64,000 nucleotides of DNA, from contig NZ_FQWQ01000003.1 in NCBI RefSeq assembly GCF_900129725.1, positions 716,686-780,685 of the forward strand. Reading direction: 5' to 3'. The notes beneath the pieces are model-generated. The model was not told the DNA's origin. It saw only the letters and a program-made list of their open reading frames with translations, and did not search any database. The stretch's first letter is position 1. Every line of letters begins with the position of its first letter. Positions 18,085 through 57,225 of the stretch are shown here, one piece after another. A program made the translations under genes and the position numbers. Source of the DNA: Chryseolinea serpens (GTDB lineage: Bacteria; Bacteroidota; Bacteroidia; Cytophagales; Cyclobacteriaceae).

Positions 18085-18180
18085 CTGTCTCCTGAATTCT
18101 GACTCCTAAAGACTTCTGTCTCCTGAATTCTATCTCCTAAAAATTCTGGCTCCTGGCTCCTGGCTTCTGGCTCCTGACTC
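18085..18180. repeat. Degenerate CTCCTG(A/G)nTTCTG micro-repeat
   Basis: About eight short units related to CTCCTGAATTCTGA and CTCCTGGCTTCTGG follow one another directly up to the kduI stop codon. They are 7-14 bases long and imperfect. Similar sequence (CTTACTTCTTACTCCTGATT) occurs once at 23378. No coding function is evident. Confidence 0.65.
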
Positions 18181-19009
18181 ACCGCAGTTCCCCCGGCGCC
18201 ACCGCATCCATATCTCCATAATCCAAATTCTCCCCCGCCATTCCCCAGATGAAAGTATAGCTGCTCGTTCCCGCTCCACTATGAATCGACCAGGGCGGCG
18301 AGATCACCGCCTGATGGTTCTTCACAAACAAATGCCTGGTCTCTGCAGGCTCACCCATGAAATGACAAACTACCTGGTTGGGTGGAAGATCAAAATAAAA
18401 GTAAGCCTCCATCCGCCGGTCGTGTACGTGTGGCGGCATGGTGTTCCAGACGCTTCCGGTTTTTAATTCGGTTAGTCCCATTTGGAGTTGGCAGGTTTCC
18501 AGCACGCTATTCACCAACAGCTTGCGTATGGTGCGGTGGTTGGATGTTTCGGGTCCGCCAATGGTGACGGTCTCTGCCTCTTCTAAGGTGACCTTGCGTC
18601 GCGGATAGGTGGTATGTGCAGGGGCGGAGTTAAAATAGTAAAGCGGTTTGTCGGCGCCGGGCTGGAAGGTCACTTCGCGGGTGCCCCGGCCGATGTAGAG
18701 CGCTTCTTTGTTCGCGAGCGGATAGTCCATGTCGTCGACGGTCACGGTGCCCTTGCCTCCCACGTTGATGATGCCGATCTCGCGGCGTTGCAGGAAGAAG
18801 TCGGCCTTGAGGGCGTTGAACGTTGTGAGTTGGATCGGGGCTGTGGCGGGGTTGGCGCCGCCGATGATCAGGCGGTCGTAGTGCGTGTAGCAAACCCTCA
18901 GCTCATTTTCGGGGAAGAGGTTCTCCACGAGAAAGGCTTCGCGAAGTTGCTGGGTTTGAAATGTTTTTACGGCGTCGGGATGGATGGCGTAGCGGATTTC
19001 GTGTTTCAT
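18179..19009 (-). CDS. kduI: 5-dehydro-4-deoxy-D-glucuronate isomerase (KduI)
   Basis: Converts 5-keto-4-deoxyuronate (DKI) to 3-deoxy-D-glycero-2,5-hexodiulosonate in breakdown of unsaturated uronates from pectin and related polymers. From the ATG at 19009 it has 276 residues, close to the usual 278. The zinc site HVHDRRME gives H194, H196 and E201, matching known ligands in E. coli KduI with an offset of two; DYGDMDAV lies at the end. Other family blocks: LREAFLVENLF, IGRGTREV, PAHTTYPRR. An upstream codon would add eight residues. The partner dehydrogenase KduD is not in the window; kdgF lies across the divergent promoter. Confidence 0.96.
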   Translation of the reverse strand: MKHEIRYAIHPDAVKTFQTQQLREAFLVENLFPENELRVCYTHYDRLIIGGANPATAPIQLTTFNALKADFFLQRREIGIINVGGKGTVTVDDMDYPLANKEALYIGRGTREVTFQPGADKPLYYFNSAPAHTTYPRRKVTLEEAETVTIGGPETSNHRTIRKLLVNSVLETCQLQMGLTELKTGSVWNTMPPHVHDRRMEAYFYFDLPPNQVVCHFMGEPAETRHLFVKNHQAVISPPWSIHSGAGTSSYTFIWGMAGENLDYGDMDAVAPGELR

Positions 19010-19224
19010 AAGATCGAGTCGTGAGGGATGCAATATACTGTAAATTTAAAATGATGGTTTTAGCCTCGAGCAATGCGGGTGAAAAGCGCTAAGGTGTGAT
19101 GCCTGTGCGACCGTACAAAACGGATTCCGGCAGAAAATGAACGATTTGCTTTTCATTATGCGAATAAGTTGATAACATGTAAATCCTTTGCATAAAACCT
19201 GTAAGCGCCGAACGTCTCTTCGAC

Positions 19225-20424
19225 ATGAAAGAAACTCCTCTAAAAACAAAGTTGAAGCCTTATGTCCTGCTGACCGCCGGATGCATCGCGATGGCTTCCT
19301 GCAGCAAGCCCGGAGCCGCCATCGAACTCTCCAACGAACTGGACCTGGAGCGCACCGAAATGATCTCCCTGAACCTGCACCTGCTGGATTCTTCTCTTTA
19401 TAAAAATGCGCATCTCCAGATGAAGGATGCGCAAGGAAATATCCTGCCCAGCCAGGAGTTGGATGAGGATGGCGACGGAAAGCCGGAAGAGATCATTTTT
19501 CAGGCCACCCTGAAGCCAAAAGAAACCCAAACCGTGTCTGTTGAAAGGACGGAAAAAACGAGCGACACCACTACAACCCAGGGAACCTATGCCCGGTTTG
19601 TACCTGAACGCATCGACGACTACGCCTGGGAAAACGACCGCGTGGCCTTTCGCACCTATGGCCCCGAAGCGCAGCGCCTCGTAGACGAGAATCAACCGGG
19701 GGGAACGCTTTCCAGCGGAATAGATTGCTGGCTGAAGCGTGTTGACTATCCCATCATCAACAAATGGTATAAAAAGGGCGAGACCGGTGGCACCTATCAC
19801 CACGACGACGGCGAGGGATTGGACAACTACCACGTGGGCGCCAGCCGCGGGAATGGTGGTATCGGTGTTTGGAAAAATGACTCACTCTATGTTTCAAAAA
19901 ATTTCACGACCTACAAGCGCCTTGCGAATGGCCCACTCCGGACGCTCTTCGAACTCACCTATGCGCCCTGGAAAGTGGACGACGTCACGGTGAACGAGAC
20001 CAAACGGATCACCATCGACCTGGGCACGCAGATGAGTAAGGTTGAAGTGAGTCTCAGCACGTCGGCGCCGCTTCCCAATGTCACGATCGGCATCACGCTT
20101 CACGACAAGAAAGGGGAGACCAAGACCGACTCCATCCACGGCTGGACCAGCTATTGGGAGCCGCTCGACGATTCCTATCTGGGCACGGGTGTGATCATCA
20201 ATCCGCAGGATGTGATCCGCTTCCAGGAATTCCGTACGGAGAAAAAAGATCTGAGTCATTTGTATGTGGTGGCGAAGCCCATCGATGGCAAAGTGACTTA
20301 CTACAATGGTTTTGGATGGAAGAAAGCCGGTCGCTTCGATGCGTTTGAAAAATGGACGGCCTATCTCACGGAGATGTCGCAGCGATTGGCTTCACCAGTA
20401 AAAATAAAATACATCAAAAAATAG
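19225..20424 (+). CDS. DUF4861 lipoprotein
   Basis: This 399-residue protein has a lipoprotein-type signal (LLTAGCIAMASC, probable lipidated Cys at about residue 27) and the DUF4861 domain typical of Bacteroidota polysaccharide utilisation loci for pectic or other uronate-containing glycans. Seen: FVPERIDDYAWENDRVAFR, GIDCWLKRVDYPIINKWY, the histidine-rich YHHDDGEGLDNYHVG and FGWKKAGRF. The function of the domain is not established as far as I know; a uronate-related role is inferred from its neighbours kduI and kdgF. It begins the operon DUF4861-kdgF-lectin-fold gene. Confidence 0.88.
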   Translation: MKETPLKTKLKPYVLLTAGCIAMASCSKPGAAIELSNELDLERTEMISLNLHLLDSSLYKNAHLQMKDAQGNILPSQELDEDGDGKPEEIIFQATLKPKETQTVSVERTEKTSDTTTTQGTYARFVPERIDDYAWENDRVAFRTYGPEAQRLVDENQPGGTLSSGIDCWLKRVDYPIINKWYKKGETGGTYHHDDGEGLDNYHVGASRGNGGIGVWKNDSLYVSKNFTTYKRLANGPLRTLFELTYAPWKVDDVTVNETKRITIDLGTQMSKVEVSLSTSAPLPNVTIGITLHDKKGETKTDSIHGWTSYWEPLDDSYLGTGVIINPQDVIRFQEFRTEKKDLSHLYVVAKPIDGKVTYYNGFGWKKAGRFDAFEKWTAYLTEMSQRLASPVKIKYIKK

Positions 20425-27677: not shown

Positions 27678-29324
27678 TCACAATGAAACGCCGCGTTTCC
27701 AGGGAATAAAATCATCCTGGTTCAGGGCGACGGACTTTGCTGTGGTCCGGCCGCTGGCCACCTCGATGATGAAGTCGAGGATCTCTTCGCCGACCTGCTC
27801 GATGGTCTTCTCCCCCGAAATGATCTGGCCGGTGTTGAAGTCGATGATGTCGGGCATCTTTTGTGCCAGCCGGGTGTTTGTGGAAAGTTTGATTACCTGC
27901 GACACGGGGTTGCCCGTGGGGGTGCCGAGGCCGGTGGTAAACAAAATGATCTGTGCGCCGGAGCCGGTGGTGCCGGTGGTGCTCTCCACGTCGTTGCCGG
28001 GCGTGCACAGCAGGTTTAGGCCGGGCTTTCGGATGTAGGTGGCGTAGGGCAGCACATCGGCAACGGGCGCGGTACCACCTTTTTTGGCAGCGCCGGCCGA
28101 CTTGATGGCGTCCGTAATGAGGCCGTCCTTGATGTTGCCCGGTGAGGGGTTCATGTCAAAGCCGGAGCCTACCGCTTCGGCGGCATCGGAATAGGTGCGC
28201 ATCAATTGGATGAACCGGTTGCCGGCTTCGTCTTCCTCGCAGCGGTTGATGAGTTCCTGCTCCACACCGCAAAGTTCCGGGAATTCGGAAAGGATGGTGC
28301 TCCCTCCTAAAGCTACCAGCAAATCGGAGGTGTGGCCGATCGCCGGGTTGGCGGAAATGCCGGAGAAGCCGTCGGAGCCGCCGCACTTGAGGCCGACCAC
28401 GAGTTTATTAAGGGGTGCGGGCTTGCGCTCGGTCTTGTCGGCTTCGATGAGGGCCAGGAATGTTTTTTGGATGGCCTGGCTCAGCAATTCCTGCTCGGTG
28501 CCGGATTGTTGCTGGTCCAGGATGATCACGGGCTTCAAACTTTTCGGGTCGAGCGCGGCCAGTCTTTCCTGGATCGTTTTTATTTCTGCGTTCTGACAGC
28601 CCAGGCTTAGGATGGTCGCCCCGGCCACGTTGGGGTTGTGGATGTAGCCGGCCAACAGCGCACACAAGGTTTGTGCATCCTGGCGTGTGCCGCCACAGCC
28701 GCCCTGGTGGGTAAGCACTTTGATACCGTCGATGTTTTTGAACACGCGTTTCGAGGGCACTTCCGTGGCCGGCTGAAAACGCACATCGCCGAGCTTTTCG
28801 GTTTTGCCCTCGCGATAGAGATTGACCAGCTCGTGGACATAGTGCTTATAAACATCCGGTTTGGTGAACCCCAGTTCGTCCTGGAAGGCCTGACGGATCA
28901 TTTCCACATTCCGGTTTTCACAAAAGACCAGGGGAATCACAAGCCAATAGTTGGCGGTGCCCACCTGGCCGTCGGCGCGATGAAAGCCCATAAAGGTCTT
29001 GCTCTTGAATGCCGAAACATCCGGCGGCGTCCATTGATAGGTCTTCGTCCTTCCGGAATACGGCGCGGCTTTGTGTTTGAGATTGTGTGTGCCGATAACA
29101 CCGCCCTGTTTGATGGGCTGTGTGGCTTTGCCCACGACGGTGCCATACATGAACACTTCGTCCTCGGGCGCCAGATCGTTCTCGGCAAATTTATGTTTGG
29201 CATTCACGTCGTCTTTCAGCACGAGCGATTTGCCTTCATAAGAAATTTTTTCTCCGGCTTTGAGGTCGGTCAAGGCGACGAACACATTGTCGGCCGGGTG
29301 AATCTTTAAAAACGTGTTTGACAT
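27678..29324 (-). CDS. uxaA: Altronate dehydratase (UxaA family)
   Basis: Dehydrates D-altronate to 2-keto-3-deoxygluconate in galacturonate breakdown. From the ATG at 29324 (MSNTFLKIHPADNV) it has 548 residues. An N-terminal SAF domain (about 5-100, with LKAGEKI and GVIGTHNLKH) joins the large C-terminal iron-dependent dehydratase domain, marked by THQGGCGG, LSLGCQNAEI, GLKCGGSDGFSGISANPAIG and NPSPGNIKDGLITDAIKSAGA. Family members also act on galactarate; altronate is favoured because kdgK and eda are adjacent. An extra 12 upstream codons would run through the operator-like palindrome, so the internal start is preferred. Confidence 0.93.
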   Translation of the reverse strand: MSNTFLKIHPADNVFVALTDLKAGEKISYEGKSLVLKDDVNAKHKFAENDLAPEDEVFMYGTVVGKATQPIKQGGVIGTHNLKHKAAPYSGRTKTYQWTPPDVSAFKSKTFMGFHRADGQVGTANYWLVIPLVFCENRNVEMIRQAFQDELGFTKPDVYKHYVHELVNLYREGKTEKLGDVRFQPATEVPSKRVFKNIDGIKVLTHQGGCGGTRQDAQTLCALLAGYIHNPNVAGATILSLGCQNAEIKTIQERLAALDPKSLKPVIILDQQQSGTEQELLSQAIQKTFLALIEADKTERKPAPLNKLVVGLKCGGSDGFSGISANPAIGHTSDLLVALGGSTILSEFPELCGVEQELINRCEEDEAGNRFIQLMRTYSDAAEAVGSGFDMNPSPGNIKDGLITDAIKSAGAAKKGGTAPVADVLPYATYIRKPGLNLLCTPGNDVESTTGTTGSGAQIILFTTGLGTPTGNPVSQVIKLSTNTRLAQKMPDIIDFNTGQIISGEKTIEQVGEEILDFIIEVASGRTTAKSVALNQDDFIPWKRGVSL

Positions 29325-29346
29325 ACTGGTAAAAAAACTATCTTGC

Positions 29347-29358
29347 GCAATCGATTGC
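29347..29358. promoter_or_regulatory. LacI-family-type operator palindrome in the uxaA/eda-like divergent promoter
   Basis: GCAATCGATTGC is a perfect 12-base palindrome with the central CG typical of LacI-family operators. It is located between uxaA (-) and the + strand uronate genes, flanked by TTGC and AAGT. No LacI-family gene lies in the window, so the regulator would be encoded elsewhere. Confidence 0.5.
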
Positions 29359-29430
29359 AAGTGATAAATCTAAAATTTTAATACAGGAAAATTTTATTTG
29401 GACGAATCCTGCATAAATATCTATACCAGA

Positions 29431-30123
29431 ATGTCAGTAAGCAAGAAAGACGCGATTATCAATATAAAGGCAACCGGCCTCATCCCAGTCTACTTTCACC
29501 ACGATGTGGACATGTTGCTCCGCAGTGTGTCGGTGAGCTATGCCTGTGGCATTCGCGCTTTCGAGTTCATGCACCAACGCGACAACAAGGGTCTGCGCTA
29601 TTTCGAATACCTCGTGGAACGCCTCGATAAGTTTCCCGGCCTGATGCTCGGCGTGGGCACGGTGCTGGACGCCACCATGACGGAACGCTACATTCACTCC
29701 GGTGCCAGTTTTATAGCCTCACCTTTTCTGCGCCCCGACATGGGCGAAGTGTGTCAACGTCACGACATCCTCTGGATGCCCGGATGTTCAGCAGCACCCG
29801 AAATAGAAAAAGCAAAAGCATTGGGCGCACAAGTCATCAACGTATCGCCCGGCAACGTGCTCGGTCCTGACTTTGTCGCCACCGTGGCGCGGCAGTTCAC
29901 CGACCTGCAATTTATACCGTCGGGCATAGCCGACCTGCGCGATGCCGAGTTGATGAAATGGTTCGAGTCCGGGGCGATGGCCGTGAAATTGAACGCCCTG
30001 CTTTTCACGAAGGACCTGATCGCGGAAAAAAACTGGAAAGCCATTGAACACAATCTTTTAGCATTATTGAAAAGTATTCGTAAAATTCAGGCCACGGTAA
30101 AACCCCTGAATATCCTCAAATGA
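29431..30123 (+). CDS. KDPG-aldolase paralogue lacking the Schiff-base lysine
   Basis: 230 residues from the ATG at 29431; clearly homologous to the aldolase at 32262 along its whole length (FEF, LGxGTV, PGC, SPGNVLGPDFV). However, the catalytic lysine is replaced: INVSPG has N137 where the paralogue has K136 in IKLFPG. The phosphate-binding glycine pair (TGGV) reads PSGI, and VGMGSQLFT reads VKLNALLFT. The base-carrying E45 is kept. It is therefore unlikely to be a class I KDPG aldolase; it could be a pseudoenzyme, regulator or have changed chemistry. It overlaps the next gene by four bases (ATGA) and opens the operon. Confidence 0.85.
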   Translation: MSVSKKDAIINIKATGLIPVYFHHDVDMLLRSVSVSYACGIRAFEFMHQRDNKGLRYFEYLVERLDKFPGLMLGVGTVLDATMTERYIHSGASFIASPFLRPDMGEVCQRHDILWMPGCSAAPEIEKAKALGAQVINVSPGNVLGPDFVATVARQFTDLQFIPSGIADLRDAELMKWFESGAMAVKLNALLFTKDLIAEKNWKAIEHNLLALLKSIRKIQATVKPLNILK

Positions 30124-31163
30124 CTCCCATCAACACAGCGCTCCTCTCCTTTGGCATGTCAGGAGAAGTTTTTCATGCCCCTTTAATAAACGCCCATTCC
30201 GGATTTAACCTCACCACCGTCCTCCAACGCAGTTCCTCGCGTGCCAAGGACCTGTACCCCAACGTGAAGATCGTACGCCAGTTGGACGAGGTGATCAACG
30301 ACAAGAGCATCGAACTGGTCGTGGTGAATACACCCAATGATACACACCAACCCTATGCTGCCAAGGCCCTGGAAGCGGGCAAGCACGTGATCGTGGAGAA
30401 ACCCTTCACCGTCACCACGGCAGAAGCCGACAGCCTGATCGCCCTGGCAAAAAAGGTGGGCAAGACCCTCACCGTTTTTCAAAGCCGGAGATGGGATGGA
30501 GATTTTCTCACCCTGAAGCGCGTCATCGATAACAAACTTGTGGGAAAGATCGTGGAGATCGAGATGCATTATGACCGCTTCCGCAACTACATCGAGCCCA
30601 ACACCTGGAAAGAAGAGGCCGGCATCGGAAAGGGAATTCTTTATAACCTGGGGTCACACATGCTGGACCAGGTGCTGTTGATGTTCGGAATGCCCAAGAC
30701 CGTCGACGCCCGCATCGGCACACAGCGCCCGGGTGGAAAAGTGGACGATTATTATGATATACGCCTGCAGTATGATGGTTTTCATGCCATTGTGAAATCC
30801 AGCTACCTCGTGCGCGAGCCGGGGCCCCGCTATATTGTGCACGGAGTGGACGGTTCGTTTGTGAAATATGGAATTGATCTGCAAGAACAGGCTTTGAAAG
30901 AGGGTAAGAGCCCGAAATCTACGTCATGGGCTATAGAGACGAAGGAATGGTGGGGGACGCTGAACACTAGCATTGGGTCGCTCCATGTGGAGGGGGCTGT
31001 GGAGACCGTGCCGGGGAACTACCTGGGATTCTACCAGAATGTGTATGAAGCCATACGGGAAGGGAAGGCAGTAGCGGTGAAGCCGGAGGAGTCGCGGGAT
31101 GTGATCCGGTTGATTGAATTGTGTTATGAGAGCAGCAAGTTGAATAAGGCGGTATCGGCTTAG
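30120..31163 (+). CDS. Gfo/Idh/MocA-family oxidoreductase (YdgJ-like)
   Basis: NAD(P)-dependent sugar or sugar-acid oxidoreductase. The 347 residues begin with a Rossmann fold (LLSFGMSGEVFHAPLINAH), with VVVNTPNDTHQPYA and the family motif EKPF (93-96) carrying the catalytic lysine. It resembles E. coli YdgJ along its length, including FQSRRWDGDFLTLK, YNLGSHMLDQ and RYIVHGVDGSFVKYG. Physiological substrate of YdgJ-type enzymes is not firmly known; its place between uronate genes suggests a uronate or its keto-acid. Starts inside the previous stop codon (ATGA overlap). Confidence 0.9.
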   Translation: MTPINTALLSFGMSGEVFHAPLINAHSGFNLTTVLQRSSSRAKDLYPNVKIVRQLDEVINDKSIELVVVNTPNDTHQPYAAKALEAGKHVIVEKPFTVTTAEADSLIALAKKVGKTLTVFQSRRWDGDFLTLKRVIDNKLVGKIVEIEMHYDRFRNYIEPNTWKEEAGIGKGILYNLGSHMLDQVLLMFGMPKTVDARIGTQRPGGKVDDYYDIRLQYDGFHAIVKSSYLVREPGPRYIVHGVDGSFVKYGIDLQEQALKEGKSPKSTSWAIETKEWWGTLNTSIGSLHVEGAVETVPGNYLGFYQNVYEAIREGKAVAVKPEESRDVIRLIELCYESSKLNKAVSA

Positions 31164-31257
31164 CGTAAAAAAAGAATTTAAACCGCCTCACCTTCGCTAA
31201 AGCTTCGGCAAGCAAAGAGAGGCGCCTCCTTCACTGAAGCGGTGTAATATAGTAACG

Positions 31258-32256
31258 ATGAAGAAGAAGATTGTCACTTTTGGAGAGATCATGATGCGGC
31301 TTTCTGCGCCGGGGTTTGCCCGGTTCACGCAGGCCGGAAGTTTTCAGGTGTTGTATGCCGGTTCGGAGGCGAACGTGGCCGTGTCGCTGCGCAATTTTGG
31401 ATTTGAAGCCGCCCACGTCACGCGCTTTCCCAGCAATGACCTGGGCATAGCGGCCACCCAAAGCCTGCAACGCAACGGCGTGGATACGCGCCACATCCTT
31501 TATGGCGACGAACGGATGGGTCTCTATTTCCTGGAGAACGGCGCCATGCAGCGCTCGTCGCGTATCATCTACGACCGCTTTGACTCCGCCTTTGCGCACA
31601 TTGCTCCCGGCAGCGTGGACTGGGATAGCATCATGAAAGACGCCGCCTGGTTTCACTGGACCGGCATCACACCGGCCATCTCGCAAGGTGCCGCCACGGT
31701 GTGTCACGAGGCCCTGGTGTCGGCGCGTAAACACGGCGTGATGATCTCCGGCGACATCAACTACCGGCGCAATTTGTGGCAATACGGCAAGACCGCCCGC
31801 GATATAATGCCCGACCTCATTCAACTCACCGACCGCATCGTGGCCGGCATCACCGATTTTGAGAACTGCATCGGTGTGAGCGGCAAGACGTTTGAAGAAG
31901 TCAGTCACCACGCGATGAAACAATACCCCAACATCCAAAAGGTGTCATGCACCTACCGGGAGTCGGTCAGCTCATCGCACAACAACGTGTCGGCGGTGAT
32001 CTGGAATGGCAAGACGTTGAGCACTTCGAAAACCTATGCGCTCACACACATCGTTGACCGCGTGGGCGGAGGCGATGCCTTTATGGCCGGCCTTATCTAT
32101 GGCTGGCTCACCGGCAAGACCGATGAGCAAACGGTGGAGTTTGCCGCAGCCGCCACGGCGCTCAAACACAGCATGGAGGGCGACGTGAACCTGGCCTCCG
32201 TCGAAGAGGTGGAGACGTTGGTGAAGGGTGAAAATATTGGAAAACTTTTACGATAA
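31258..32256 (+). CDS. kdgK: 2-keto-3-deoxygluconate kinase (PfkB family)
   Basis: Phosphorylates KDG to KDPG. The 332 residues show the ribokinase fold: TFGEIMMRLSAPG at the N-terminus, YAGSEANVAVSLRNFG for sugar binding, GDINYRRNLW, and the anion-hole/catalytic motif GGGDAF with D273. KDG kinase is preferred over other PfkB kinases because of the GEIMMRLS/SEANVA pattern and because uxaA and eda are adjacent. A 94-base gap upstream has loose inverted-repeat character (CGCCTC/GAGGCG) but no clear terminator; eda follows after five bases. Confidence 0.93.
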   Translation: MKKKIVTFGEIMMRLSAPGFARFTQAGSFQVLYAGSEANVAVSLRNFGFEAAHVTRFPSNDLGIAATQSLQRNGVDTRHILYGDERMGLYFLENGAMQRSSRIIYDRFDSAFAHIAPGSVDWDSIMKDAAWFHWTGITPAISQGAATVCHEALVSARKHGVMISGDINYRRNLWQYGKTARDIMPDLIQLTDRIVAGITDFENCIGVSGKTFEEVSHHAMKQYPNIQKVSCTYRESVSSSHNNVSAVIWNGKTLSTSKTYALTHIVDRVGGGDAFMAGLIYGWLTGKTDEQTVEFAAAATALKHSMEGDVNLASVEEVETLVKGENIGKLLR

Positions 32257-32261
32257 CGATC

Positions 32262-32924
32262 ATGACATTCAGCAAACAACAGATAGTAGACACCATAAAA
32301 GCATCGGGCATGGTCCCGTTGTTCACACACGACGATCCCAAAGACGCACAGGAGGTACTCGAAGCATCCTATGCCGGCGGCGTTCGCGTGTTCGAGTTTA
32401 CCAACCGGCGTAAAAATTCTTTTGAAGTATTTTCGCACTTGCTCAGTGCCCGCGAAAAATACCCCGATCTCATGCTCGGCATTGGCACGGTGATGGACGG
32501 ACCCATGACGAAACGTTTCATCGACGCCGGGGCACACTTCATCATTTCGCCCATCATGAAACCCGAGATGGCCGAAGTCTGCCATGCCCACGACATGTTG
32601 TGGATTCCGGGCTGTGCCACGCCGACGGAAATCGTGAACGCGAAGCAACTGGGCGCCGAGATCATAAAACTTTTCCCGGGTTCGGTCTTAGGTCCCAACT
32701 TTGTGTCGTCTATCATGCCCGTTGTACCGGATCTGCAGCTCATGATCACGGGTGGCGTTGAACCCACCGAGGCGAGTCTTTCTTCGTGGTTCAAGGCAGG
32801 CGCGGTATGCGTGGGGATGGGTTCTCAATTGTTTACAAAAGATATACTTCAACAACGGAATTGGCCTTTGTTGAAACAACGTGTGGAGGAGACCTTGCGC
32901 CTGGTGAAGGCGATCCGAAAATAA
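32262..32924 (+). CDS. eda: KDPG/KHG aldolase (Eda)
   Basis: Cleaves 2-keto-3-deoxy-6-phosphogluconate to pyruvate and glyceraldehyde 3-phosphate. The 220 residues carry the active-site set: E45 (VFEF), the GIGTV loop, PGCATPTEI, Schiff-base K136 in IKLFPGS, and phosphate-binding TGGV (163-166) and VGMGSQLF. It begins five bases after kdgK, completing the KDG-to-pyruvate step. It is the functional-looking member of a pair; the other, at 29431, has lost the lysine. Confidence 0.94.
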   Translation: MTFSKQQIVDTIKASGMVPLFTHDDPKDAQEVLEASYAGGVRVFEFTNRRKNSFEVFSHLLSAREKYPDLMLGIGTVMDGPMTKRFIDAGAHFIISPIMKPEMAEVCHAHDMLWIPGCATPTEIVNAKQLGAEIIKLFPGSVLGPNFVSSIMPVVPDLQLMITGGVEPTEASLSSWFKAGAVCVGMGSQLFTKDILQQRNWPLLKQRVEETLRLVKAIRK

Positions 32925-32948: not shown

Positions 32949-34250
32949 GTGCAAAACCTGTCCAAACCCGAAGGCAACTACCGCTGGACCATCTGCGCCC
33001 TGGTGTTCTTTGCCACGACGGTGAACTATCTCGATCGTTCGGTGATCAGCCTCATGAAAACCGAACTGTCATCGGAGTTTCATTGGAACGACGGCGATTA
33101 TACCAACACCGAGATCGCTTTCAAATTGATGTATGCGTTAGGCATGCTGGGCGCGGGGAGGTTGATGGACAAACTGGGAACGAAACTGGGTTATCTCCTG
33201 GCTACCGGCTTGTGGAGTTTGGCGGCTATTGGCCACGCGTTCGCTGGCAGCACGTTGGGATTTGTTTTAGCGCGCGGCGCCCTGGGCGCTACGGAATCTG
33301 GAAATTTTCCTGCGGCCATCAAAACCACGGCAGAATGGTTCCCGAAAAAAGAACGCGCATTGGCCACGGGCATCTTCAATTCCGGGACCAATATCGGTGC
33401 CATTATTGCGCCCCTCAGTGTTCCTTTTATTATTGAAGAATGGGGATGGCAGTGGGCCTTTATCATCACGGGCTCGTTTGGTTTCATCTGGCTGGTGTTG
33501 TGGATCGTTGTCTACGACGTGCCGTCGAAACATAAAAAACTCTCCAAGGAAGAATTCGAATACATTCACAGCGATGTAGAGGACAATGCAGCGTCGTCGA
33601 CCGAAAAAGTTTCCTGGTTCAGGTTGCTCGGGTTTCGCCAGACGTGGGCTTTCGTGTTGGGGAAATTTCTGACCGATCCCATCTGGTGGTTCTATCTTTT
33701 CTGGCTCCCCGATTTTCTCACCAGCGAGTATGGATTGAAGGGGACCCAATTGTCGTTGCCGGTGGCCATGGTGTATGTGATCTCTACGTTCGGCAGCGTC
33801 TGGGGAGGCTGGCTTCCGCTCAACTTCATCCAAAAAGGGTGGCCGGCGTTCAAAGCGCGGAAGACGTCGATGCTCATCTATGCTTTCCTGGTCATTCCCA
33901 TCGTGTTTGCACAGATTGCCGGACAGGTCAATATGTGGCTGGCGGTGATCGTGATCGGCATTGCAACCTCCGCGCACCAGGCGTGGAGCGCCAATATTTT
34001 TACAACGGTGTCGGACATGTTCCCCAAAAAGGCGGTAGGCTCGGTTACCGGCATCGGTGGTATGTTTGGCGGTCTGGGTGGAATTGCCTTCAGCCTTTTT
34101 GTACAGAAAGATTTATTCGTGCATTATAGAGCGATCGGCAACATCGAAGCGGCCTACTATATTATGTTTATCATCTGCGGGTCGGCCTACCTGCTGGCCT
34201 GGGCCATCATGCATTTCCTGGTGCCGAAAATGCGGCGTGTAGAAATATGA
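32949..34250 (+). CDS. Hexuronate:H+ symporter-like MFS transporter (ExuT family)
   Basis: The 433-residue protein has 12 hydrophobic segments. It has the anion:cation symporter/ExuT signature near the N-terminus (FFATTVNYLDRSVIS), and GALGATESGNFPAAIKTTAEWFPKKERALATGIFNSG, the typical MFS motif of hexuronate transporters written here only as family blocks GATESGNFPAA and FPKKERALATGIF. The start is GTG at 32949, 24 bases after eda. Substrate is probably glucuronate or galacturonate, by family and operon context. A terminator follows, closing the uronate operon. Confidence 0.9.
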   Translation: MQNLSKPEGNYRWTICALVFFATTVNYLDRSVISLMKTELSSEFHWNDGDYTNTEIAFKLMYALGMLGAGRLMDKLGTKLGYLLATGLWSLAAIGHAFAGSTLGFVLARGALGATESGNFPAAIKTTAEWFPKKERALATGIFNSGTNIGAIIAPLSVPFIIEEWGWQWAFIITGSFGFIWLVLWIVVYDVPSKHKKLSKEEFEYIHSDVEDNAASSTEKVSWFRLLGFRQTWAFVLGKFLTDPIWWFYLFWLPDFLTSEYGLKGTQLSLPVAMVYVISTFGSVWGGWLPLNFIQKGWPAFKARKTSMLIYAFLVIPIVFAQIAGQVNMWLAVIVIGIATSAHQAWSANIFTTVSDMFPKKAVGSVTGIGGMFGGLGGIAFSLFVQKDLFVHYRAIGNIEAAYYIMFIICGSAYLLAWAIMHFLVPKMRRVEI

Positions 34251-56205: not shown

Positions 56206-57225
56206 ATGCGCGAGACAAAACCCGAATTCATACACATCCCTAAACCTCAAATGGAAGAAGCCTTCCGGCAGATCCTGCTTCGCCATGGTTTCCCCACCGC
56301 CAAAGCGGCAACGTGTGCGGCAATATTCACCGACAACAGCATCGATGGCGTGTACACCCACGGCGTGAACCGCTTCTCCCGGTTTGTCAAATACACCCAA
56401 CAGGGCCATATTCTCCCGGAGAAAGAAGCCGTGCTGAAACATGCCGCCGGGTGCCTGGAGCAATGGGATGGTCAGTCGGCTGCAGGGCCGCTCAATGCCT
56501 TGCAGTGCACCGAGCGCGTGATGGAGATCGCCGGCGTACAGGGCATGGGTTGTGTGGCCCTCGCGCATACCAACCACTGGATGCGTGGCGGAACCTATGG
56601 CTGGAAGGCTGCCAAAGAAGGCTTTGTCTTCATCGGCTGGACCAACACCACCGCCAACATGCCCACCTGGGGTGCCCTCGACAACAAACTGGGCAACAAC
56701 CCGCTCGTCATCGCCGTGCCCCACGAGGGCGAAGCGATCGTGCTCGACATGGCCATGTCTCAATACTCTTATGGCGCCCTGGATTTCTATGAACTCAAGA
56801 AACAGCAACTCCCCGTACCCGGCGGCTTCACAAAAGACGGCGTGCTGACGACCGACCCTTCGGCCATCCGCGAGTCGCAACGCATTTTGCCTATTGGCTA
56901 CTGGAAGGGCTCCGGTTTATCGCTCTTGTTGGATATCGTGGCCACGTTGCTTTCGGGTGGACTTTCCACCGCCGGCGTCTCCCAACAAAAAGCAGAGACC
57001 GGTGTTTCCCAGGTGTTCATGGCCATCGACCTGAAACGGCTGGGGAACTACAAGGCCATGGCCGCCTCGTTGCAACAGATCCTCGATGACTATCATGCCT
57101 CGCGCCCCGATGGGAATTCGCGTGTGATCTTCCCGGGCGAAAGGGTGCTGGCCACCCGCGAAGAAAACACAAAGAATGGAATACCCGTTTTGAAGAAGGT
57201 TTGGGATGAGATCCAACAATTATAG
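56206..57225 (+). CDS. 2,3-diketo-L-gulonate reductase-like (YiaK/DlgD family)
   Basis: NAD(P)H-dependent reductase of the malate/L-lactate dehydrogenase-2 fold. The 339 residues show the catalytic H52 in DGVYTHGVNRF, AHTNHWMRGGTYGW (121 onward, a hallmark of YiaK), NPLVIAVP and LPIGYWKGSGLSLLLD. YiaK reduces 2,3-diketo-L-gulonate to 3-keto-L-gulonate in L-ascorbate/gulonate breakdown; the remaining pathway genes are not visible here. Fits the sugar-acid theme of the window, but it stands alone between amt and a lipase gene. Substrate assignment is by family resemblance. Confidence 0.88.
   Translation: MRETKPEFIHIPKPQMEEAFRQILLRHGFPTAKAATCAAIFTDNSIDGVYTHGVNRFSRFVKYTQQGHILPEKEAVLKHAAGCLEQWDGQSAAGPLNALQCTERVMEIAGVQGMGCVALAHTNHWMRGGTYGWKAAKEGFVFIGWTNTTANMPTWGALDNKLGNNPLVIAVPHEGEAIVLDMAMSQYSYGALDFYELKKQQLPVPGGFTKDGVLTTDPSAIRESQRILPIGYWKGSGLSLLLDIVATLLSGGLSTAGVSQQKAETGVSQVFMAIDLKRLGNYKAMAASLQQILDDYHASRPDGNSRVIFPGERVLATREENTKNGIPVLKKVWDEIQQL

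Follow-up and report, generated by a model that had tools for sequence, protein, structure and literature searches.

A maintained KDPG-aldolase paralogue lacking the Schiff-base lysine, with an apparently remodelled pocket, in a uronate operon of Chryseolinea serpens

Pseudoenzymes and class I aldolases are both already known, and the protein described here is a new variant. PDX1.2, a triosephosphate isomerase (TIM) barrel without the catalytic lysines, reportedly pairs as a dead paralogue with the active enzyme PDX1.3. An inactive-looking paralogue is also kept beside an active one in the case of the trypanosomal S-adenosylmethionine (AdoMet) decarboxylase prozyme, according to the available part of the source (PMC6221367). 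In the 2-keto-3-deoxy-6-phosphogluconate (KDPG) aldolase of Escherichia coli, Lys133 is catalytic and Glu45, Arg49, Thr73, Pro94, and Phe135 take part in substrate recognition, and FlAld of Flavobacterium UMI-01, titled a KDPG aldolase, has Lys133, Glu45, Arg49, Pro94, and Phe135, with serine in place of Thr73 (both from the available part of PMC5334617). This report is focused on a gene of Chryseolinea serpens (Bacteroidota, Cytophagales) located in a stretch of 64,000 nucleotides (contig NZ_FQWQ01000003.1, positions 716,686 to 780,685; hereafter the window), which is part of an 8.36 Mb genome. Its product, referred to as ALDn, is a maintained aldolase paralogue that has lost the lysine and acquired a remodelled pocket, and it very probably does a job other than sugar splitting.

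The whole genome contains two matches to the family model PF01081, both in this window:

29431..30123, + strand: ALDn, lysine-less KDPG-aldolase paralogue, operon gene 1 (230 amino acids; PF01081 77.3 bits; alignments)
32262..32924, + strand: ALDk, intact aldolase for KDPG and 2-keto-4-hydroxyglutarate (KHG), with E45, K136, TGG loop, and VGMGS (220 amino acids; NF005499 268.3 bits; alignments)

Both exceed the PF01081 cut-off of 27.8 bits (118.9 for ALDk), and both fall under the NF005499 equivalog cut-off of 275, ALDn at 179.8 bits and ALDk narrowly. The ALDn start is the ATG at 29431, and an in-frame TTG is also found at 29398. The PF01081 matches and the alignment bear out an earlier reading of the sequence alone (the sequence-only reading), which had proposed two homologous aldolase genes, one of them without the lysine. 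N137 of ALDn (codon 29839-29841) aligns with K136 of ALDk, E45 is the same in both, PSGI lies opposite ITGG, and VKLNALLFT lies opposite VGMGSQLFT. ALDn resembles the KDPG/KHG aldolase Eda (PF01081, NF005499, Protein Data Bank entry 8di1) in fold, length, Glu45, the Thr of GxGT, the Pro of SP, and an operon with a sugar kinase. By contrast, the Schiff-base lysine and the Phe two residues on are gone, an insertion follows Glu45, Pro-Ser replaces Ile-Thr on strand 7, and Lys or Arg replaces Gly on strand 8; 8di1, unlike ALDn, retains the Schiff-base lysine. FlAld, as far as its source was available, is similar in belonging to Bacteroidota, to the same family, and to a sugar-acid cluster with a 2-keto-3-deoxygluconate (KDG) kinase, and differs in having Lys133 and Phe135, both of which ALDn lacks. 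Prozyme-type pairs differ from ALDn in family and organism.

The lysine position was compared in 140 distinct aldolase copies, comprising top search matches, neighbourhoods of the operons, and 40 regions retrieved to find additional copies, which is not a random sample; 29 duplicates had been removed and none was removed for length. Lysine is present in 128 copies and lost in 12, which are exactly the ALDn group, and the loss in the window copy is therefore no accident of a single sequence. The substitutes are N (five copies), T and G (two each), and I, S, and M (one each), so that the asparagine put forward as a signature residue by the sequence-only reading holds in 5/12 only. Because the lysine is gone, the covalent mechanism is unavailable at the usual site, where ALDn is predicted to be incapable of the usual Schiff-base chemistry. 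Aldolase activity through a relocated Schiff-base lysine, such as K186 of strand 8, would preserve the ancestral reaction, and K186 indeed lies at the barrel mouth in the window copy, with lysine there in seven of the 12. The other five have arginine, however, and all alignment columns were checked without finding one that has lysine in all 12, so that no replacement lysine serves the whole group and a relocated lysine is very improbable. Another conserved active-site lysine, which had been named as a finding that would speak against the proposal, was thus sought across the 12 copies and not found.

Several parts of the active site are retained or newly fixed in the 12 copies. Glu45 is invariant, as are Thr77 and Pro98, which correspond to Thr73 and Pro94 of E. 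coli, and the Phe135 position is occupied by L, S, I, or V. All copies have the one-residue insertion after Glu45 and Pro-Ser on strand 7; no variation is seen at R50, D51, R56, N142, P163, and S164, and K or R occupies position 53, giving a stretch R-D-x-K/R-x-x-R after strand 2. At the strand-8 position (185 in ALDk, K186 in ALDn), glycine occurs in 127 of the 128 lysine-bearing copies, versus Lys in seven and Arg in five ALDn. The retained Glu45, Thr, and Pro, together with the new basic residues, fit sugar-acid binding. Ten columns, the insertion included, have differing fixed states (at least 11/12 ALDn versus at least 10/11 ALDk), and seven of these lie at the barrel mouth, which we defined as the two final residues of every strand plus the three that follow. 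Entropy in ALDn is 0.76 at the mouth versus 1.35 elsewhere, and 0 of 10000 permutations gave a value as low.

Strand-7 TGG and strand-8 GxGS together constitute what we take to be the phosphate site, and this pattern is absent from all 12 ALDn. Strand 7 reads SGI, SGG, or SAG, with S-G-G kept in 5/12. Since these five keep S-G-G and every copy has Lys or Arg on strand 8, the phosphate side appears to be remodelled rather than simply lost, and the plain loss of phosphate binding previously proposed is too strong a statement. ALDn could also be a KDPG buffer or sensor that holds the phosphorylated sugar acid by the new basic residues, in agreement with the S-G-G strand 7 in 5/12 and with K/R53, R56, and K/R186 in 12/12. 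This function is unlikely, as the second strand-7 glycine is Ile in 6/12 and the position opposite Ser188 of ALDk is Ser in none of the 12.

An AlphaFold model of ALDn computed from the 12 sequences has a mean predicted local distance difference test score (pLDDT) of 90.0 and a predicted template modelling score (pTM) of 0.86. The best Foldseek match is 8di1, the KDPG/KHG aldolase of Tannerella forsythia (Bfo2294), with template modelling (TM) scores of 0.90/0.94; the 50 matches listed are KDPG-type aldolases and designed cages or fusions, many of them, by name, built on such an aldolase. The predicted fold is thus unchanged, and the change seems to be confined to the pocket.

A profile search with the 12 ALDn identified carriers in 12 of 390 family genomes (340-391 bits, no internal stop), and the next match was a lysine-bearing aldolase of G044 at 255 bits. 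The profile was built from the same 12 genomes, and the gap in bit score therefore expresses distinctness and is no independent discovery; a search that used only the window copy had earlier brought up the first nine among ordinary aldolases. The carriers belong to three genera: the six listed genomes of the window's own genus (its own included), five of the seven listed for a second genus (g74), and one of a third (g17, G305). Among the matches listed for 390 order and 395 phylum genomes, no ALDn-like copy stood out save that of the own genome; the order and phylum draws share genomes with the family draw, cut-offs were E 1e-30 and 1e-55, and at most seven places were scored per genome, so that a divergent lysine-less copy could be missed.

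A midpoint-rooted tree of 76 sequences separates the 12 ALDn and a copy of G283 from the 63 others with 100/100 support. The G283 copy (L053:8794-9510) lies at the ALDn place in its operon. It still has the lysine, combined with the insertion and strand-7 Pro-Ser; strand 8 has Gln, and the active-site Thr is replaced by Gly. It falls inside ALDn on a very long branch; keeping the 12 together costs 0.58 log units (approximately unbiased test, p-AU 0.397), and the copy is possibly an intermediate or an independent divergence. Should it be an ALDn member, a point left undecided by the tree, it may reveal in what order the changes arose. Of the two points in the suggested check, whether lysine-less homologues form one clade and whether they are always linked to ydgJ-like genes, the linkage holds in 12/12 and a clade excluding the G283 copy is not settled. 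Two genomes, G156 and G177, have the operon without ALDn. In a UxaA tree built from 18 rows (11 of them carriers; G182 excluded as incomplete), ALDn presence needs four changes, and the position of G156 and G177 among the carriers suggests that they lost ALDn.

ALDn is intact and under purifying selection. Its frame is open in all 12 genomes, and the ratio of nonsynonymous to synonymous substitution rates (dN/dS) is 0.036 for G000/G163, 0.076 for G074/G197, 0.153 for G212/G225, and 0.128 for G000/G136 (dS above 1); the G015/G093 pair is saturated. The other operon genes, the transporter left out, range from 0.005 to 0.113, and in G000/G163 the ALDn ratio lies below those of YdgJ, kinase, and ALDk. 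A decaying, functionless duplicate would account for the missing catalytic residue, for the absence from G156 and G177, and for a lower identity of ALDn than of ALDk in G000/G136 (78% versus 86%) and G015/G093 (76% versus 85%), although not in G000/G163 (97% versus 96%). Decay is nevertheless scarcely credible in view of the open frames, dN/dS values of 0.036-0.153, and new invariant residues across three genera. The sporadic frameshifts that would have pointed to decay are not found in the 12 copies, nor are stops, and the retained, altered function proposed by the sequence-only reading agrees with the open frames, the low dN/dS, and a pocket conserved in changed form.

The gene setting of ALDn is uronate breakdown, and comprises the following further features:

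27678..29324, - strand: UxaA-type (galactarate/altronate family) dehydratase, divergent from ALDn (PF20629, PF04295, PF08666; TIGR03248 273.6 bits, below cut-off)
29346..29359, no strand: near-perfect palindrome CGCAATCGATTGCA, LacI-type operator candidate, between the two divergent transcripts
30120..31163, + strand: YdgJ/YvaA-like Gfo/Idh/MocA oxidoreductase (NF008607, PRK11579, 330.2 bits, cut-off 330; PF01408, PF02894)
31258..32256, + strand: sugar kinase, probable KDG kinase (PF00294; models for kinases of KDG and 2-keto-3-deoxygalactonate (KDGal) match below curated cut-offs)
32949..34250, + strand: major facilitator superfamily (MFS) transporter, probably for sugar acids (PF07690 184.5 bits; TIGR00893 218.6 bits, below its cut-off)

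Across the ALDn loci the gene order is UxaA|ALDn-YdgJ-(SDR)-KdgK-Eda, where SDR denotes a short-chain dehydrogenase/reductase. A lysine-bearing aldolase is present in the same operon in 12/12 genomes, the G225 copy being interrupted by an undetermined assembly stretch. Two prozyme-like features are found in ALDn: a catalytic residue is lost with the predicted fold kept, and an active-looking paralogue exists in the same cell. ALDn might be a pseudoenzyme partner that tunes Eda (or YdgJ or the kinase) by assembly, perhaps sensing a sugar acid. The intact aldolase in every operon agrees with this, as do the six different residues at the lysine position, which are expected if the chemistry is no longer needed, and heterodimerization of a dead paralogue with an active one is documented for AdoMet decarboxylase in the available part of the source (PMC6221367). 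On the other hand, family aldolases are common without ALDn (the query, of the KDPG-aldolase family, is matched in 284/390 family genomes versus 12/390 with ALDn), the operons of G156 and G177 do without it, and ten newly fixed columns are more than a mere scaffold seems to need. A pseudoenzyme partner is accordingly possible, if somewhat doubtful. Tandem pairs of lysine-bearing aldolase genes also occur in the uronate operon, at L038:9564-10901 in G182, which has ALDn besides, and at L052:7187-8517 in G183.

The explanation that we favour, with some reserve and short of an even expectation, is that ALDn abandoned Schiff-base chemistry at the usual site, retained the barrel together with a conserved pocket, and contributes to the hexuronate pathway in a different way. 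ALDn would bind a carboxylated, perhaps unphosphorylated, intermediate of galacturonate or glucuronate breakdown, and Glu45 would be the general acid/base for a proton transfer, such as isomerization, epimerization, or tautomerization, with no covalent intermediate. The product may be used by the YdgJ-type or SDR oxidoreductase encoded in the same transcript, or may enter the UxaA-KdgK-Eda route. The ligand, the role of Glu45, and the fate of the product are less certain than the loss of the lysine and the maintenance of the pocket.

Several observations weigh against such an enzyme. A non-catalytic binder, too, would be expected to have a conserved mouth, and that of ALDk is conserved even more strongly (entropy 0.20 versus 0.74 elsewhere), so that this conservation is evidence of a retained pocket but not of catalysis. 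An exact equivalent of Eda Arg49 is missing from ALDn; the position is Q49 in 10/12 and L or T in the rest, followed by the invariant R50, and the insertion leaves the register uncertain. The ligand of the strand-8 K/R and the R-D-x-K/R-x-x-R stretch could be a molecule other than a sugar acid. With the transporter set aside, the top dN/dS value among the operon genes belongs to ALDn in two of four pairs, and the G212/G225 copies of ALDn share 87.6% identity versus 94-99% for UxaA, YdgJ, and KdgK. Furthermore, no pathway gap for ALDn was found at UxaC or KduI in 18 genomes of our own choice (the 12 carriers and six others): UxaC is present in 18/18 and a KduI-family protein in 17/18, G044 being without, and ALDn therefore does not fill those gaps.

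The enzyme, the dead partner, and the KDPG sensor are not distinguished by the data. That ALDn is either a new enzyme, acting on a hexuronate-pathway sugar acid with the KDPG-aldolase barrel but no Schiff base, or a bacterial counterpart of the prozyme that serves KDPG aldolase is, taken together, somewhat more probable than not. If so, ALDn represents a new use of the fold that the Pfam name 'KDPG and KHG aldolase' now conceals; annotation by Pfam only calls ALDn a KDPG/KHG aldolase, and aldolase counts in these bacteria would consequently be too high. An operon in which one paralogue has the covalent catalyst and the other lacks it offers a natural experiment on the repurposing of a class I aldolase barrel. 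Among titles and abstract starts of open-licence PubMed Central (PMC) papers, none was found on a lysine-less or pseudoenzyme KDPG aldolase, and among open-licence PMC papers none on Chryseolinea with galacturonate.

The YdgJ gene directly follows ALDn on the same strand in 12/12 loci, with a four-base overlap in six, including the previously described overlap in the window, and gaps of 1-13 bases in the others. The nearest solved structures of the YdgJ-like protein are 3fhl and 3gdo (YvaA). At E 1e-40, YdgJ is single-copy in all 18 genomes, inside the operon in 14 and elsewhere in four (G183, G160, G283, and G044), where no open reading frame next to the gene matched the operon reference proteins; in G156 and G177, YdgJ is in the operon though ALDn is absent. 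On a poorly resolved YdgJ tree, the 12 ALDn neighbours are not one group and three changes are needed, and a single origin is still compatible. The suggestion that ALDn and YdgJ act together is only partly borne out: the adjacency in 12/12 stands, but YdgJ is single-copy in 18/18, two operons have it without ALDn, four genes are distant, and the tree leaves the neighbours ungrouped. The link is a steady but loose neighbourhood, not proof of joint action. YdgJ as an obligate partner of ALDn is not supported, given the single copy in 18/18 and the four genes outside the operon.

An extra gene of 273-289 codons follows YdgJ in 8/12 loci. Three of these, checked by Pfam, encode SDR oxidoreductases, two of which were also assigned by NCBIfam to the PRK08277 'D-mannonate oxidoreductase' type. 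The SDR is absent from the operons of the window genome, G163, G136, and G182, and a relative lies in the uxaC cluster of the first three. It stands beside uxaC in G000 and G163, with uxuA between them in G000. A match to Mannitol_dh (UxaB family) is missing, within the 18 genomes, from G000 and G163 only, where UxaC and the UxaA-type dehydratase are present, and both fructuronate and tagaturonate may be substrates for reduction by the SDR of their uxaC cluster. ALDn with YdgJ as a substitute for UxaC, KduI, or UxaB was considered and rejected on the UxaC and KduI-family counts and on the restriction of the missing Mannitol_dh match to these two genomes, which have the SDR relative beside uxaC.

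The uxaA-ALDn gap contains the palindrome CGCAATCGATTGCG, exact in 8/12 carriers and with at most one mismatch in 11/12, with a weaker form in G182. It is also exact in G156, G177, and G283 and has at most one mismatch in G183, all without a lysine-less ALDn, and is thus not tied to ALDn itself. Whole-genome counts of its inner 12-mer are one in the own genome, one in G163, four in G015, and six in G074, and a backward control gave 0; the window alone has one match at up to two mismatches versus 0.58 expected, a count that is uninformative. In G074 one of the sites precedes a kduI-SDR-lacI-uxaC-uxaB cluster by about 180 bases, which makes the LacI-family gene of that cluster a candidate regulator; its model matches are below curated cut-offs. 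The candidate operator would link ALDn to the uronate genes. In Bacteroides thetaiotaomicron, the LacI-family regulators KdgR, UxaR, and UxuR are predicted for uronates, according to the available part of the source (PMC3878776).

The MFS gene at 32949-34250 has 57% identity to its G163 counterpart, versus 95-98% for the remaining operon genes, which may point to its replacement in either the lineage of the window genome or that of G163. About 9 kb from the operon, a KduI-family gene (18179-19033) is arranged back to back with a DUF4861 gene (18179-20424 for both). A further sugar-acid enzyme, 3-dehydro-L-gulonate 2-dehydrogenase, is encoded at 56206-57225 of the window (NF009750, 408 bits versus a cut-off of 316).

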